A stretch of 64,000 bases of DNA. It comes from Arthrobacter sp. Leaf137 (lineage in GTDB: Bacteria; Actinomycetota; Actinomycetes; Actinomycetales; Micrococcaceae). The notes below the pieces were generated by a model, which worked only from the letters and a program-made list of their open reading frames with translations, was not told the origin of the DNA and did no database searches. Below are positions 23,903-30,275 of this stretch, piece by piece. The position numbers and the translations under genes are program-made. Position 1 is the first letter of the stretch; the number at the start of each line of letters is the position of its first letter. The stretch is taken from positions 124,001 through 188,000 of the forward strand of contig NZ_LMOI01000022.1 in NCBI RefSeq assembly GCF_001423525.1, given 5' to 3'.

Positions 23903-24835
23903 ATGGCCAAGTCCACCGCAGAAAACACCTTCCTTCGACTCAAGACCGTGCTGGATGTCCTGACCGAAGGCGTGTGGTCCGGTGATGCGCTGAATGCGGG
24001 CCAGGTCCTGGCGGAATCCACGGCACGCGTGCCGTTCAACGAGCACGAGGTCGAGCTGCTCAGCGGCGGAATTCCCCGCGGGCACAAGACCCTCACCTCG
24101 GCCACCGCCAAGCTGGTCAAGGCCGGCTGGCTGGTCAAGGGCCGCTCCGGCTGGACCATCACCGAGGACGGCATGCGCGCCACTGTCGCCTACCCGGATG
24201 CTGTCTCCTTCGCTTCCGCGCTCGACGCCGGCACTCCCGTTCCGGCCGACACCCCGGTTCCGGCAGCTCCCGCCGGATTCGTCCGTCCGGTGTCCGCCGC
24301 TGCCGCCACCCTTGAGGTGCCGGCCAAGGACGACGCCAAGAGCGCCACCAAGAAGTCTCCAGCGAAGAAGGCGCCGGCCAAAAAGGCTGCCGCTGTTGTG
24401 GAGAAGGCCGCCAAGGCGATCGAAGACGCCGTCGAGCCCGTGGTGAAGGCCGTGCGCAAGAAGGCACCGGCGAAAGCGGAAGCCGCCACACCTGTCGCAG
24501 CCGAGCCGTTCGAAGGTCCGGACGTGGAGACGCACCCGCAGCCCGAGGCCGTGGCTGTTGCCGGCGACTTCAACACCATCCTGGGTGCCCCCGAGAACTG
24601 GGCGCCGCAGTACGACGAGGCCCAGATGGAGTTCGACTTCCTGGACCAGCTGTGGAAGAAAAGCGCCGAACTGCCGGCCGGCCACTACACCTTCAAGATC
24701 GCGCTCAACCGCTCGTGGACCGAAAACTACGGCGCATTCGGGACGTTCGATGGCCCCAACCACGAGCTGCACCACTCCGGCGGCACCGTAACCATCCGCT
24801 ACAACCACTCCACGCGCGACATCACCATCAACTAA
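23903..24835 (+). CDS. Winged-helix / Lys-Ala-Pro linker / X25 carbohydrate-domain fusion
   Basis: 310 residues from ATG 23903 (AGGGGA site). Three parts: (1) residues about 5-95, a helical domain ending GHKTLTSATAKLVKAGWLVKGRSGWTITEDG, strongly like the winged-helix N-terminal domain of Mrr restriction proteins; (2) about 145-190, Lys/Ala/Pro repeats (KKSPAKKAPAKKAA) like histone H1 tails; (3) about 208-310, an X25-type beta-sandwich (VAVAGDFNTILGAPENWAPQ, AGHYTFKIALN) seen in pullulanases. No signal peptide and no hydrolase residues, so it looks cytoplasmic, perhaps linking DNA with glycogen-like polymer. Function unknown. Confidence 0.72.
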   Translation: MAKSTAENTFLRLKTVLDVLTEGVWSGDALNAGQVLAESTARVPFNEHEVELLSGGIPRGHKTLTSATAKLVKAGWLVKGRSGWTITEDGMRATVAYPDAVSFASALDAGTPVPADTPVPAAPAGFVRPVSAAAATLEVPAKDDAKSATKKSPAKKAPAKKAAAVVEKAAKAIEDAVEPVVKAVRKKAPAKAEAATPVAAEPFEGPDVETHPQPEAVAVAGDFNTILGAPENWAPQYDEAQMEFDFLDQLWKKSAELPAGHYTFKIALNRSWTENYGAFGTFDGPNHELHHSGGTVTIRYNHSTRDITIN

Positions 24836-24843
24836 GCGCCCAT

Positions 24844-24917
24844 CCTCCCCAACTGGGTAGCAGCAGATGTCGTTTTGAGCCCTCCTAACGACATCAACTG
24901 CTACCCAGTTGGGGAGG
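24844..24917. repeat. Palindromic repeat, copy 1
   Basis: Left arm 24844-24874 and right arm 24887-24917, 31 bases each with two mismatches, around a 12-base loop. Its core (GTAGCAG..GATGTCGTTTTGAGCCCTC..AACGACATC) is shared with the element at 29008-29063. It lies just after the X25-fusion gene and before acyP, so it may end the former's transcript. It looks like a dispersed REP-type element of the genome. Confidence 0.8.
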
Positions 24918-24940
24918 GCGGATGCCGAGGAGGCCTACCC

Positions 24941-25255
24941 ATGGCACGCCACGCAGAACCAACCGCTGACGGGCCGTCGGCTCACCAGGTTCGCTTGAGC
25001 GCCCGCGTGTTCGGGGTGGTGCAGGGTGTCGGCTTCCGGTACCGGACCATGGGTGAGGCTGAGGAGCTGGGCCTGACCGGTGAGGTGAAAAACCTCGACG
25101 ACGGTTCGGTGGCCCTGGTTGCCGAAGGTGCCGGCGACCAGGTGGGGAAGCTCCTGGACTGGCTGAACTCGGACCGCGCCCCCGGCCGGGTGGAGCGGGT
25201 GGACCATTCCATGTCCGACGCCCAGGGATCATTTAGGGACTTCCGGGCACGCTGA
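24941..25255 (+). CDS. acyP: Acylphosphatase
   Basis: 104 residues from ATG 24941, preceded by GAGGAGG. The catalytic loop VQGVGFR (27-33) supplies Arg33 for phosphate, and Asn51 in VKNLDDG is the second catalytic residue; both are present. It hydrolyses acyl phosphates such as acetyl phosphate in the cytosol. About 14 extra N-terminal residues precede the domain. Its last 23 bases overlap the end of the opposing RecB-like helicase gene. Confidence 0.92.
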   Translation: MARHAEPTADGPSAHQVRLSARVFGVVQGVGFRYRTMGEAEELGLTGEVKNLDDGSVALVAEGAGDQVGKLLDWLNSDRAPGRVERVDHSMSDAQGSFRDFRAR

Positions 25256-28200
25256 GCCCGATAAAGGCACCCAGTTCCTCCAGGGCCGCCGGCTTATGCG
25301 GCATGTAGTTCGTGAGCTCGGGGGAGCGGACGATGACCGCCCGCCACTGGCCACGTGACACGGCCACGTTGACCCGGTTCCGGTTCAGGAGGAATTCGGC
25401 GCCCCGTGGAGCTTCCGCCACCGCAGAGCAGGCCATCGATACCAGCACCGCCGGTGCTTCCTGGCCTTGGAACTTATCCACCGTTCCCACACGGACGTCC
25501 GGCAGGCCGGCGTCGGCCAATTCCTTGCGGATCAGGTGGACCTGGGCGTTATACGCGGCCACCACCAGCAGGTCCTGCTGCTCAAGCGGCCGGGCTGCTA
25601 ATTCCGGCCCGGCCGTCCATTTCAGGCCCAGGTGCCGGTGTGCCTGCCGAACCACCTCCGCCGCTTCCTCTGCCGAGCTTGTCGAATTGCCGGTGTGCTG
25701 CACGACCACGGTCTCCACGCCCGGCGGCACGGTTTCCAGCTCACGCAGGGACGCGGCCGGTGCTGACTGGAGCCTACTTTCGTAGCTGAGCCTCGACACC
25801 GCAGCGCACAGTACCGGATGCATCCGCCAACTGTCAGCCAGGAAATATCCCAGCCGTGCCGGCAGGGTGGCGTGACCGGCGGCCAGCCAGCCGAGGGCGG
25901 ATTCATCCACCGGCTCCGGATGGGCACCCTGCGTCACCTGGGGGAGTTGCTGGGGATCCCCCAGCAGGAGGAGCCGCTTCGCTGCCCGGGAAACGGCCAG
26001 CGTGTTGGCCAGGGAGAACTGTCCGGCCTCATCGATCACCAGCAGGTCCAGGGAACCGGCCGGGACTTCCTTGCCGGTCATGGTCCAGGCCGTTCCCCCT
26101 ACCAGGCAGCCGCCGGCAGACTCCAGCAGCCGTGCGACATCGCCGTCGGCCGTAGCTTTCCACGGCACCTCGTGGGGCGCAGAGAGCTTCTTCGCCACCA
26201 GCGACGGGTCCACCCCGCCCTTATCGATGGCCCGGCAAAGCAGGTTCTCCACCACGTTATGCGATTGGGCCACCACGCCCACCTTCCAGCCTTCGCCGAC
26301 GAGCTGGCCGATCACGTGCGCGCCAACGTAGGTTTTGCCCGTGCCGGGCGGCCCCTGGACGGCCAGGTAGGAACGGTCCAGGTCCCGCAGCGAAACAGCG
26401 ATGGCGCCTGCATAATCGGCAGCGCCATCGACCCCGTGCTGAACCTCGGCCGGGCCGGGCAGCGTGCGGAACCGCGGCGGCAGTTTGCGAAGGATGTCCA
26501 GGCCCGGTTGGGAGGGCAGTGAGGGAACCGCGGACCCCACGGCCTTCGCAAGTTCCGCCAGCGCGGCCTCAATACTCACCGTCGCCAGCGGCTGGTCCTC
26601 GGTCAGGGCCATCGGGAAATGCGGGTACGCCGCCACCTTGGCGGACTCGCGTTCGGCGATGGTGATGAGGGTGTAGACCGGGTTATCCGGTGCAGCCTGC
26701 AGGTCGCTGATACGCGTCCCGAAGTTGTACGCCCGGGCTCCCGGCGCTGCATCCGGCGCCGCCATGCCCTCCGGCGGCGGGGCGTCATAGAGACGGCACC
26801 AGGTGGAATCCGTACGGAAGTCGGAACCTTCGGTCATAGTGCCGCGTAGTTTCAGCACACGGGTCCGCATCCGCTCCCGCGGCTTCGCCAGTGCCCAGTC
26901 GGAGGACACCTCGGCGGACTCCACCACGAACACATTGCGCTGATCGGACCAGCTCTCCAGGGAAGCCTCCACCCGGTCAAAGTGCTGCCACCAGAACTGT
27001 TTGCGTTCACGGCGGTGGTATCCTGTGGCCGCCGCAACCATCGCGATGGCCCGTTCATCGTCCGTCCAGGGGCGGTTGTCCGGGAGGCCGGCAAGGTACT
27101 CGTGAAGCCGGCCCTCCTCAGGGGATTCGCCCCGCGCGTCCCGGCGTCCCGTGGTGGCATCGCCGGATCCAGGGACTCCGGATCCGGTGCCCTCCCGTGC
27201 TTCCGCCGGAAGTTCGGAACCAGCTTGGGGCTGGATGTCCAGCAGCCAGTCACGCAGGCGCAGCGTGGACAGGCAGTCGTACTGGTTGTAATCGGAAATG
27301 GAGGCAAGGACGGCGTCTGCCTCGGCCTGGTGCCCGGCGTCGCGGGCGGCGCAGTAGGCCGCGTAGGCCACCACGGACGCCCCGGCATCCTTGACGTCCC
27401 CGGAGCGCAGGTTGTCGCCCATGTACAGCGGCTCGAGCTTTTTGATGGAGTAGGACGCCTCGGAGATGCGCAGCGAGTGCTTCACCGTGGCGTAGAGGTC
27501 CACCAGGAGCCCTTTCCGCAACCAGTCGTCCACGGTGTCTTCGCCCGCCTGGTGGGCCAGGGACAGGTTACGCAGCGCCGTCTTCTCGTAGGCGGCGTAG
27601 TGGTAGACGTGCATGTCCGGATACTGCCTGCGACGGTTCTCCACGTACTCGAGGAAATCCAGGAAGGCTTTCCGTTCCCCGGACCGGGAATGGGCCCAGA
27701 AGGGCCGGAACACCGGATCGCCCCCAGCGTCGGCGACGGGTGCCTCGATCACGCCGAACAGGTACTCGATGCCCCAGACTCCTGTTGCCGGGTCCTGCCA
27801 GAGCGGATCGCCCTCAAAGTCGAAGAAGATGTCCCCGGCACTCGGGGCCGGCAATGTGCCGACGGTGTGTTCCGGCAGGACGCTGTAGGAAACAGTGTGT
27901 GGCTCGCCGTCTTTACTGAACGTACGGGACCCGGCGGCAGCATCGAGCCCCAGCTGCATCCTGGCTTGGGCACGCAGCCGGGCCACTGAGTTTTTCGCTG
28001 CAGCAGCCGGCATGGCAGCGAGTTCGTCGATGCTGGTGATGCCGGCCGCGTGGAGTTTCCTGCGCTGGACCACCGACATTCCCGCGACCATGAGGAGGTC
28101 GCGGTGCAGGCTGACCTGTTCTGCACAGTAGTCGCACCGGCCGCAGTGGACGATCCCCGGCTGCTGCCACTGGACAGCCCCGCCGCCCTCGCGGTGTTCC

Positions 28201-28877
28201 GCGGTGAGCTGGCGGAAGCGCCGGCGCCTTTCGTGGAAAACGGGGAGCAGGTCCGGCAGGGAATGGCTGCTGCGCAACCAGTCCTCACCCACGCGGGTGC
28301 CCAGCACGAGGGTCACGACGGGGGAGGGGTCCAGCCCCATCCCGAGGAGCTGGTCACCGTAGGCCGCCAGCTGCAGCAGGGCGCCCACCTTGGCGTGCCG
28401 GGCGAGCTTGGTGTCCCAGACCTCATACCGGCCCGGCAACCCTGTTCCGGCGGCCTCGTTGACCAGGAAGTCCGCATAGCCGAGGAACTCGCCATCGAAG
28501 AAGGTGGCCTGGAAGACGACGTCGGCTCCGGAGCGCAGCGCGAGCTCGGTTTCGGCGTGCTTTGCCTGGAGTTCCCCGCGGACGGTGTTGCCGCGTTCCA
28601 GTGAGTAGACGCCCGCCCCGCGGCTGGCATCCCATGTTCCGTATTTGGCCACGAGGCTGGCCAGGACGGTCTGCTCGTGCCGGTCGCCCAGCTCGCCGGC
28701 CCGGACCCGCATCTCGTCCGGAGGGAATGCGGCCTTGGGGGACCGGCCCAGTTTCTCGTCCAGAACGCGGAGCGTGCGGTATTCACATTCGCTGGCCGCC
28801 ACGAGGTCGCTCGCGGAGAACACGAGGTCCGGCGCAGCACCGGGACCGGCACTGGCATCGGCTTCGAGCAGGAACAC
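25233..28877 (-). CDS. TM0106-type RecB-like nuclease fused to superfamily 1 helicase
   Basis: 1214 residues. The N-terminal third is RecB-type (SECEYRTLR near 33 and HCGRCDYC near 245, the four-Cys iron-sulfur layout; nuclease core GYADFL...YEVWDTKLAR). The middle (IFFDFEGDPLWQ, residue about 350) looks like the RNase H-fold TM0106 region. The C-terminal third is a Dna2/Upf1-like helicase: GPPGTGKTYVGAH (about 841), VIDEAGQF (about 945), GDPQQLPQV, and VDKFQGQEAPAVLVSMACS. Likely a DNA repair or foreign-nucleic-acid processing enzyme; its physiological role is not established. Stands alone, convergent with acyP. Confidence 0.85.
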   Translation of the reverse strand: MFLLEADASAGPGAAPDLVFSASDLVAASECEYRTLRVLDEKLGRSPKAAFPPDEMRVRAGELGDRHEQTVLASLVAKYGTWDASRGAGVYSLERGNTVRGELQAKHAETELALRSGADVVFQATFFDGEFLGYADFLVNEAAGTGLPGRYEVWDTKLARHAKVGALLQLAAYGDQLLGMGLDPSPVVTLVLGTRVGEDWLRSSHSLPDLLPVFHERRRRFRQLTAEHREGGGAVQWQQPGIVHCGRCDYCAEQVSLHRDLLMVAGMSVVQRRKLHAAGITSIDELAAMPAAAAKNSVARLRAQARMQLGLDAAAGSRTFSKDGEPHTVSYSVLPEHTVGTLPAPSAGDIFFDFEGDPLWQDPATGVWGIEYLFGVIEAPVADAGGDPVFRPFWAHSRSGERKAFLDFLEYVENRRRQYPDMHVYHYAAYEKTALRNLSLAHQAGEDTVDDWLRKGLLVDLYATVKHSLRISEASYSIKKLEPLYMGDNLRSGDVKDAGASVVAYAAYCAARDAGHQAEADAVLASISDYNQYDCLSTLRLRDWLLDIQPQAGSELPAEAREGTGSGVPGSGDATTGRRDARGESPEEGRLHEYLAGLPDNRPWTDDERAIAMVAAATGYHRRERKQFWWQHFDRVEASLESWSDQRNVFVVESAEVSSDWALAKPRERMRTRVLKLRGTMTEGSDFRTDSTWCRLYDAPPPEGMAAPDAAPGARAYNFGTRISDLQAAPDNPVYTLITIAERESAKVAAYPHFPMALTEDQPLATVSIEAALAELAKAVGSAVPSLPSQPGLDILRKLPPRFRTLPGPAEVQHGVDGAADYAGAIAVSLRDLDRSYLAVQGPPGTGKTYVGAHVIGQLVGEGWKVGVVAQSHNVVENLLCRAIDKGGVDPSLVAKKLSAPHEVPWKATADGDVARLLESAGGCLVGGTAWTMTGKEVPAGSLDLLVIDEAGQFSLANTLAVSRAAKRLLLLGDPQQLPQVTQGAHPEPVDESALGWLAAGHATLPARLGYFLADSWRMHPVLCAAVSRLSYESRLQSAPAASLRELETVPPGVETVVVQHTGNSTSSAEEAAEVVRQAHRHLGLKWTAGPELAARPLEQQDLLVVAAYNAQVHLIRKELADAGLPDVRVGTVDKFQGQEAPAVLVSMACSAVAEAPRGAEFLLNRNRVNVAVSRGQWRAVIVRSPELTNYMPHKPAALEELGAFIGLSVPGSP

Positions 28878-29007
28878 GGGGCCTCCCCATTGGACAGCCG
28901 GGCCGGGGGACGGTTCCCCTGACCTTGGTTTACAGCTGCTTCAAACGTAGCAAGAGGGGCCGACAACCAGGGCGGGAGCAGCAGCCCTGCAGCGCTTATC
29001 CTCGAAT

Positions 29008-29063
29008 CTAGGTAGCAGTTGATGTCGTTTTGAGCCCTCAAAACGACATCAACTGCTACCTAG
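29008..29063. repeat. Palindromic repeat, copy 2 (perfect)
   Basis: Arms 29008-29031 and 29040-29063 are 24-base perfect reverse complements around the loop GAGCCCTC. It shares its core and loop with the copy at 24844-24917 and has the same plus-strand orientation. It lies 12 bases past the terC stop codon, so it probably also acts as that gene's terminator. Confidence 0.88.
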
Positions 29064-29075
29064 TTGGGCAGCGCG

Positions 29076-30275
29076 TCAGCCGTTGGCGTCCGCCCGTACC
29101 TGGGCTTTGTCGTGCTCGTCGTGGGCCTTGCGGATCAGGGCCAGGAACTCGGTTTCGTTCCGGACCAGGCGCTTGTACTTCTCCGGGAGCTTGCGGATCT
29201 GGTCCTCCTCGCGGACCATCTTGGCGAAGATCTTGTCCCGCTCCGCCATATCCGTTTCGTAGTTCAGGTCCACGTACTCAGTGGCATGCCGCCGGGCTCC
29301 GGAAACGGCGTTCTTGGCCTTGCCCTTGGGGCTGAAGATCGAGGCCAGGATGGTGAGCACCAGCACGCCGAGGATCACGCTGAGCGACAACCCGGTGCTG
29401 ACCTCCACCACGTTGACGTGCTCGCCGTCGTTGATGAACGGCAGGGTGTTTTCGTGCAGGGCGTGCAGGATGAGCTTGACGCCGATGAAGCCCAGGATCA
29501 CTGCCAGGCCGTAGGACAGGAAGATCAGCCGGTCCAGCAGGCCATCAATGAGGAAGAACAGCTGCCGCAGGCCCATCAGCGAGAACGCGGTGGCGGTGAA
29601 GACGATGAACACGTTCTGGGTCAGGCCGAAGATCGCCGGGATGGAGTCCAGGGCGAACAGGATGTCCGTGCCGCCGATGGCTACCATCACCAGCAGCATG
29701 GGGGTCAGCACCCTCTTGCCGTTCTCCATGGTGAAGAGCTTGTCGCCGTCGTAACGCTCCGACGCCGGCAGGAACTTTTTGGCGAGCCGGACCACGAAAC
29801 CTTCGGAGTCGTCGTCGTGGTCGTCAGGCTTGAGCAGGTTGCCGGCGGTGATCAGCAGGATCAGCCCGAAGATATAGAAGACCCACGCGAAGCTGTTGAT
29901 CAGTGCTGCGCCCAGGAAGATGAAGGCCGTGCGGGCAATCAGGGAGAAGACGATGCCGAACAGCAGCACCTTCTGCTGGTCCGCGCGGGGCACCTTGAAG
30001 CTGGACATGACGATCAGGAACACGAAGAGGTTGTCCACGGACAGGGCCTTTTCCGTGACGTAGCCGGCGAAGTACTCGGTACCCATGGTGGGTCCGCCGA
30101 AGAGCAGCACCCCCAGCCCGAACAGCAGTGCGATGCCCACGTAAATCGCCGACCAGATGGACGATTCCTTCAGCGTGGGGGTATGCGCCTTGCGGACGTG
30201 GAAGAAGAAATCGAAGGCCAGCAGCCCCACGATTCCCGCGATGGTCAGGGTCCAGACATAAAAAGGAACTTCCAC
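29076..30275 (-). CDS. TerC-family integral membrane protein
   Basis: 399 residues with roughly nine membrane segments. TerC hallmarks: EKALSVDNLFVFLIVMSSF with the acidic membrane Asp, and GGTDILFALDSIPAIFG, the paired motif thought to bind metal ions. A long charged C-terminal cytoplasmic tail (about 325-399) follows. TerC proteins are linked to tellurite resistance and, more recently, to manganese export or metalation of secreted enzymes. It starts 37 bases after recQ on the same strand and may be co-transcribed. Metal role is inferred from the family. Confidence 0.9.
   Translation of the reverse strand: MEVPFYVWTLTIAGIVGLLAFDFFFHVRKAHTPTLKESSIWSAIYVGIALLFGLGVLLFGGPTMGTEYFAGYVTEKALSVDNLFVFLIVMSSFKVPRADQQKVLLFGIVFSLIARTAFIFLGAALINSFAWVFYIFGLILLITAGNLLKPDDHDDDSEGFVVRLAKKFLPASERYDGDKLFTMENGKRVLTPMLLVMVAIGGTDILFALDSIPAIFGLTQNVFIVFTATAFSLMGLRQLFFLIDGLLDRLIFLSYGLAVILGFIGVKLILHALHENTLPFINDGEHVNVVEVSTGLSLSVILGVLVLTILASIFSPKGKAKNAVSGARRHATEYVDLNYETDMAERDKIFAKMVREEDQIRKLPEKYKRLVRNETEFLALIRKAHDEHDKAQVRADANG

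Follow-up and report, generated by a model that had tools for sequence, protein, structure and literature searches.

The DNA analysed here, a stretch of 64,000 nucleotides from Arthrobacter sp. Leaf137 (the window), raises the question of what two long and similar palindromes are, how they came to lie close to gene ends, and what they might do there. An earlier note took them for two copies of one dispersed palindromic repeat lying beside gene 3' ends, and both points have been borne out: the elements belong to the same 66-bp family and are 85% identical across 75 nt, copy 1 starting 8 nt past the stop codon that ends at 24835 and copy 2 lying about 7 nt from the terC stop at 29076 (Table 1). 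The arms of copy 1 (24844-24879 and 24882-24917, 36 nt each) are 89% complementary, and its inverted repeat reaches past the 66-bp unit, to 24844-24917. The arms of copy 2 (29008-29034 and 29037-29063, with 2 nt between) are 100% complementary, as had been noted, over 27 nt each instead of the 24 bp given then; the outer left end of this copy is decayed. The shared orientation that was also pointed out carries little meaning, each copy matching the opposite strand as well. Within the window, the core GATGTCGTTTTGAG (up to two mismatches) has four matches, every one of them inside copies 1 and 2, and 0.19 would be expected from shuffles. A palindrome scan of the 64 kb (30 pairs) found at least 25 pairs at these two copies only (26 and 27), the next best place having 22, and the same scan of five single-letter shuffles of the window gave between none and one palindrome with at least 20 pairs. 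An Rfam 15 search of positions 24700-29200 returned 10 matches, mostly microRNA-hairpin look-alikes, none of which reached the gathering score.

Table 1. Palindromic units and neighbouring genes in the window (positions are those of the window).
Feature	Position	Strand	Remark
Palindromic unit copy 1, 66 bp	24848..24913	.	Covariance-model match at own-genome C22:148847-148914
Palindromic unit copy 2, 66 bp	29003..29068	.	Matched by the covariance model at C22:153002-153069 of the own genome
Gene preceding copy 1, with X25 pullulanase-like domain	24002..24835	+	Start lies at edge of stretch examined
Acylphosphatase gene downstream of copy 1	24941..25255	+	ATG 24941 read from sequence; gene caller start 25007
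AAA helicase / RNase H-like nuclease gene	25233..28877	-	5' side toward copy 2
TerC-family gene	29076..30275	-	Stop codon about 7 nt from copy 2

The two elements are far from alone. In the genome of this strain (4.37 Mb in 24 contigs), blastn, pattern and model searches together found at least 26 copies of the family, and the possibility that just these two exist is thereby excluded. With copy 2 as query, blastn found 22 places at E<0.01 plus a weak one at E 0.5; the pattern and model searches contributed four further copies (C19:141604, C24:315635, C2:186189 and C18:543097), the last two through the covariance model. Aligned parts of the copies share 75-93% identity with copy 2, and the majority consensus of 24 of them is CCCAACTAGGTAGCAGTAGATGTCGTTTTGAGGCCTCAAAACGACATCTACTGCTACCTAGTTGGG. 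One region of contig 1 (C1:494000-513000) holds four copies in about 16 kb, and those at C1:498735 and C1:500387 differ by one base across the aligned 66-bp unit. The earlier note had proposed counting the core in relatives as well: with 22 fixed bases and up to three mismatches, the core occurs in 156 of 206 genomes of the genus, at 0-99 places each (24 in the Leaf137 genome; the highest counts are 99 in G197, 97 in G012 and 92 in G177), and a reversed control pattern had no match in any of the 206. An initial blastn search of 39 genomes matched 21 of the 25 that belong to the genus and none of the 14 that represent other families of the order. Further reach came from a covariance model based on 24 copies of the Leaf137 genome, which had matches within the taxonomic family in 27 of 120 genomes and 14 of 32 genera, per-genome counts referring to the best 42 scored candidates. 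Eighteen such places, from 11 genomes of the genus itself and four other genera, were read and proved to be palindromes of similar length, the arms of which share pieces (e.g., GTAGCAG or CGTTTTGAG) and are otherwise lineage-specific, with both arms altered together. The more distant of these matches are likely, rather than certainly, homologous to the family, because the model rewards pairing. Both window elements are thus members of a Micrococcaceae (Arthrobacter-type) family of fully palindromic, dispersed 66-bp repeats.

Records with an exact core match are labelled Arthrobacter, Pseudarthrobacter, Paenarthrobacter, Sinomonas or Micrococcaceae bins, with one labelled Synergistales, from a distant phylum (BNVH01000049.1), possibly a mislabelled or contaminated bin. 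The element is also present in three plasmid records (two of Arthrobacter and one of Paenarthrobacter). Phages and viruses were considered as carriers and discarded, as 50,697 phage records gave no match at E 1e-5 and the exact core was not found in the viral contig collection.

The position of the copies relative to genes is highly regular. All 26 copies of the Leaf137 genome lie between genes, 19 in tandem and seven in convergent gaps, with none between divergent genes. The 102 copies with an exact core located elsewhere, in 100 loci, are distributed among tandem gaps (56), convergent gaps (35), a divergent gap (one) and locus edges (nine), a single copy, that of the Synergistales-labelled record, falling inside a called gene; the 18 lineage variants lie in tandem (eight) and convergent (eight) gaps or at locus edges (two). 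Altogether, one of the 134 copies that have a called gene to either side (11 at locus edges and one in a called gene being excluded) separates a divergent pair, whereas divergent gaps make up 109 of the 414 gaps of at least 66 bp in the same 100 loci (233 tandem and 72 convergent, element gaps included); these loci were picked by exact core match and many are orthologous across species, so that the counts are not independent events, and genes were called from codon usage rather than taken from curated annotation. Loci mostly selected for carrying the element were scanned for palindromes of whatever sequence that pair at 23 or more of 30 positions; this gave 238 non-redundant places, none of them in genes, two between divergent genes and 15 at edges; 207 of the 238 form one sequence cluster. 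For the 127 tandem copies of this main cluster, the median distance from stop codon to element is 10 bp, 117 lie within 30 bp, and in 29 the gene end overlaps the element, which supplies the stop codon. Where tandem gaps leave at least 60 spare bases (n=60), the element is in the upstream half in 55. In the independently annotated plasmid pAD51, a copy lies 8 nt past the aceA stop. The C content of the first 16 nt past the stop is 47% at 84 element-bearing gene ends and 37% at 350 others. Many extragenic copies, behind genes and seldom between divergent ones, make the family REP-like in a broad sense.

This regularity goes together with fast turnover. At the site of copy 1, G184 and G187 have the element, and G007, G006 and G011 have recognisable relatives of it; such relatives are decayed in G001, G017 and G003, and none is recognisable in G009. 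At the site of copy 2, it is missing from all eight aligned genomes (G011, G007, G006, G017, G004, G015, G013 and G016), and no element lies beside terC in G001 and G003; in G009, G184, G187 and G170, a copy follows this same terC gene. Another example is the purU gene end; a match was obtained in 100 genomes, and 30 of them were read. In nine of these, the palindrome is at the stop codon and the gene's own CAACTAG, CAACTAA or CAACTGA coincides with the element start; in G001, the palindrome stands behind a repeated GGTCTTCAACT; and the remaining genomes have palindromes at other offsets (five), probable remnants (two), another hairpin (two) or none in the stretch read (11). Given these varied positions, the purU gene end has probably taken up palindromes more than once, although later small indels could also shift offsets.

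Turnover was followed further by comparing 24 of 25 slots of the Leaf137 genome with up to three sister species, G184, G187 and G170 (95, 94 and 94% identical to it over the purU stretch); a slot with no ortholog (L055) was left out, as was purU, treated on its own. The 60 comparisons, which for G170 cover 13 of its 24 located slots, comprise 30 with the same family, 13 with another palindrome type, two with a short GC hairpin, 11 with neither and four not comparable, the classes being assigned by reading (match score alone would rank lower L044 in G187, with a one-base indel, and L085 in G184, which has diverged). Hence, among 56 comparable sister slots, 15 have other hairpins and 11 have no element or clear hairpin, and these last genes therefore manage without one. 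The 13 other palindromes include six from two repeat families, three like a second type of the Leaf137 genome and four of a GCGCCA type (in two slots). The second family, with core TTGAGCTTGTCGAAA, has 62 matches in G187, 37 in G170, seven in the Leaf137 genome and five in G184, and the third, CTATCACTTTTGGnnCC, has 30 in G170, 15 in G187 and none in the other two, an intact palindrome giving two matches in these counts. Within loci L284-L318, the second family fills slots held by the 66-bp element in the Leaf137 genome (e.g., L291 and L305 in G187, and L311 in G170), and the third (core CTATCACTTTTGG) is seen behind stop codons at L286 and L294 in G187 and L314 in G170. The Leaf137 genome itself has related palindromes with a different outer arm at C19:173358 (L022) and C18:384222 (L088); they keep the same inner core with an outer arm of the GCTCCGTA type, and resemble the version carried by G084 and G108, which belong to a different genus of the taxonomic family. 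What stands behind a gene is therefore exchangeable, the place being taken in sister species by palindromes of other families or by a plain GC hairpin.

Regarding function, either strand of copies 1 and 2 is predicted to form very stable RNA hairpins (-45.8 to -68.2 kcal/mol, z -9.3 to -10.9). Intrinsic terminators combine a GC-rich stem with a T-run; here the stem is strong and the T-run missing, none following either window palindrome, and a T-run terminator scan listed neither. Selection at the RNA level was sought as a preference for G-U mismatches on the transcribed strand of the 127 tandem copies, with no sign of it: G-U and A-C mismatches number 83 and 94, and 28 elements lean towards G-U and 46 towards A-C (p 0.047, opposite to the direction that RNA selection would give). 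A function as RNA is compatible with this result, because so long a stem tolerates single mismatches. The arms covary: 36 cells are changed on both sides vs 21.6 in shuffles, a value reached in none of 500, these shuffles ignoring relatedness, so that shared descent may supply part of the excess. In 186 copies, covariation extends to 13 of 17 variable positions, positions 1, 2, 6 and 28 varying independently, and symmetry may possibly be maintained at the DNA level. The position of the elements, their fit to convergent gaps and their replacement by other hairpins suggest a role in termination or 3'-end formation. The idea that they are terminators or mRNA stabilisers, put forward in the earlier note, may hold, being consistent with position and hairpin strength, with the lack of a T-run and of a G-U preference counting against it.

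The usual explanation of REP elements is their RAYT transposase; REPINs with RAYT are short palindromic repeats forming populations within a genome. The 66-bp family shares this population habit; what it does not share is the enzyme. The domain characteristic of RAYT, Y1 transposase (PF01797), exceeds its cut-off in one of 198 genus genomes and reaches E<=0.001 in two, and was not found in the Leaf137 genome, with five of 14 control genomes positive, as reported by the tool. The sole genus genome with Y1 over cut-off, G164 (L319 and L321), has 19 elements, which is not unusual. The earlier note had named a REP-associated tyrosine transposase as something to look for; since it is nearly absent, the usual REP explanation fails, and identity with RAYT-borne REPINs is rejected on this ground. 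Other marks of a mobile element were sought as well. Around 201 copies, flanking direct repeats of 2-8 bp, such as a MITE served in trans by a DDE transposase would leave as target-site duplications, were not in excess over permuted flanks (a test that could miss short or degraded duplications), and the stem does not extend into the flanks above permuted ones. As for a mobilising gene that recurs beside the element, the 792 proteins predicted in the 100 loci form clusters of at most six members, and the clusters read, among the top 25, are ordinary-looking genes. As regards an autonomous relative with the same terminal repeats, the blastn places in the Leaf137 genome look like whole palindromes, and in this genome no arm was seen next to a transposase. 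Active copying, rather than another route, would be the way in which the family spreads.

Several known systems resemble the family in part. ERIC/RU-type and MITE-like repeats are long, palindromic and intergenic and have no transposase of their own; the 66-bp family differs from them in sequence and length, with no detectable target duplication. Hairpin terminators free of a T-run ('I-shaped') have been proposed for actinobacteria, and the element is like them in placing a strong hairpin directly past the stop codon; unlike ordinary terminators, it shares its sequence across unrelated genes. The closest pattern among the comparisons made, as far as the available text goes, is that of the GTAG and CGTC REPs, which lie close past stop codons, in tandem and convergent but not divergent gaps, with GTAG ends supplying stop codons; they are 20-40 bp long and bear their tag, unpaired, at one end, and the CGTC type has no dedicated transposase either (PMC3733652, Di Nocera et al., 2013). 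The 66-bp element likewise stands behind stops in tandem and convergent gaps and supplies stop codons; in contrast, it is a full palindrome in which GTAG or GTCG is paired inside each arm, with no unpaired tag. The label 'REP-type' used in the earlier note is therefore apt for a dispersed repeat that lies beside gene 3' ends and resembles REPs, and inapt for one from a genus nearly devoid of RAYT: the element is a REP-like dispersed palindrome and not a REP in the strict sense, lacking both the short tagged form and RAYT. The words 'arthrobacter' and 'actinobacter' do not occur in the text of PMC3733652, and one table row of the RepRanger paper names Arthrobacter livingstonensis (PMC12306157). 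No paper apparently describing the family was found among the matches listed (titles and abstract starts), the queries being terms other than the consensus itself, and sequence words from a different palindrome family retrieved no papers. The repeat family is genuine, strongly regular in its position and quick to turn over, and is unrecognised in the literature searched.

The reading that we favour, and judge somewhat more probable than all others together, is that of a RAYT-less REP-like repeat serving in both directions as a 3'-end hairpin or terminator. Whole new units would arrive at many non-homologous places by some mechanism, and copies would persist almost only directly past stop codons; once transcribed, the hairpin there, some 30 pairs long, would most likely terminate or protect the upstream transcript. 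Its palindromic symmetry would let one element serve both strands between convergent genes, and its position behind a gene would be interchangeable among palindrome families or with an ordinary GC hairpin. A bolder form of this reading, which we offer only tentatively, is that several unrelated long-palindrome families compete as 'mobile terminators' in Arthrobacter-type bacteria, RAYT-free and duplication-free copying placing whole hairpins of about 40-66 bp behind stops. It may equally tentatively be supposed, as part of the same joint reading, that a hairpin sometimes lands where a sister species has another terminator hairpin, close relatives then differing in their 3'-end family.

The favoured reading has to be weighed against a purely selfish miniature element that has no host function, inserts broadly and survives only directly behind stops since elsewhere it damages genes or promoters. 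Such an element would leave no copies in genes (0 of 26) and next to none between divergent genes (1 of 134), and it agrees with the swing in copy number per species (0-99), the 11 of 56 empty sister slots and the lack of an RNA-level bias. However, avoidance of harm need not demand closeness, and 55 of 60 copies in roomy tandem gaps keep to the upstream half, at a median of 10 bp past the stop; nor does it account for unrelated hairpins in 15 of 56 sister slots, and we consider it rather unlikely. Less probable still is that the palindrome works as DNA, as a protein-binding site or cruciform, with symmetry kept at that level, for instance by template switching between arms: the equally common G-U and A-C mismatches on the transcribed strand, the covariation of most variable positions and the paired changes in both arms seen at the same slot in sister species speak for it, but a DNA role alone gives no reason for a location after stop codons, and four positions (1, 2, 6 and 28) vary independently between the arms. 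For a classical REP or REPIN moved by a RAYT tyrosine transposase, there is the GTAG-like position and stop-codon overlap and the GTAG or GTCG of each arm; yet GTAG is paired within the stem and often replaced by GTCG, and with Y1 exceeding its cut-off in just one of the 198 genus genomes and not found in that of Leaf137, this is very improbable. Ordinary terminators, descended vertically and merely similar, would fit those slots that are common to several species (copy 1 and purU), but sister-species slots are empty or differently filled and copies at unrelated genes are 75-93% identical; because copies at non-homologous genes are so similar, this reading is in effect refuted.

That a genus practically without RAYT holds REP-like populations, with as many as about 100 copies in one genome, and that close species have different palindrome families at the same gene ends raises two testable questions, namely in which other ways short palindromes spread and how readily bacteria swap their transcription-end hairpins. 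At one locus (L050), about 20 bp upstream of a copy, the flank and the first bases of the element (GGCTGACCCGCCCAAGTAGG) are repeated in tandem; the repeat resembles the one behind purU in G001 and is possibly a trace of the insertion process.
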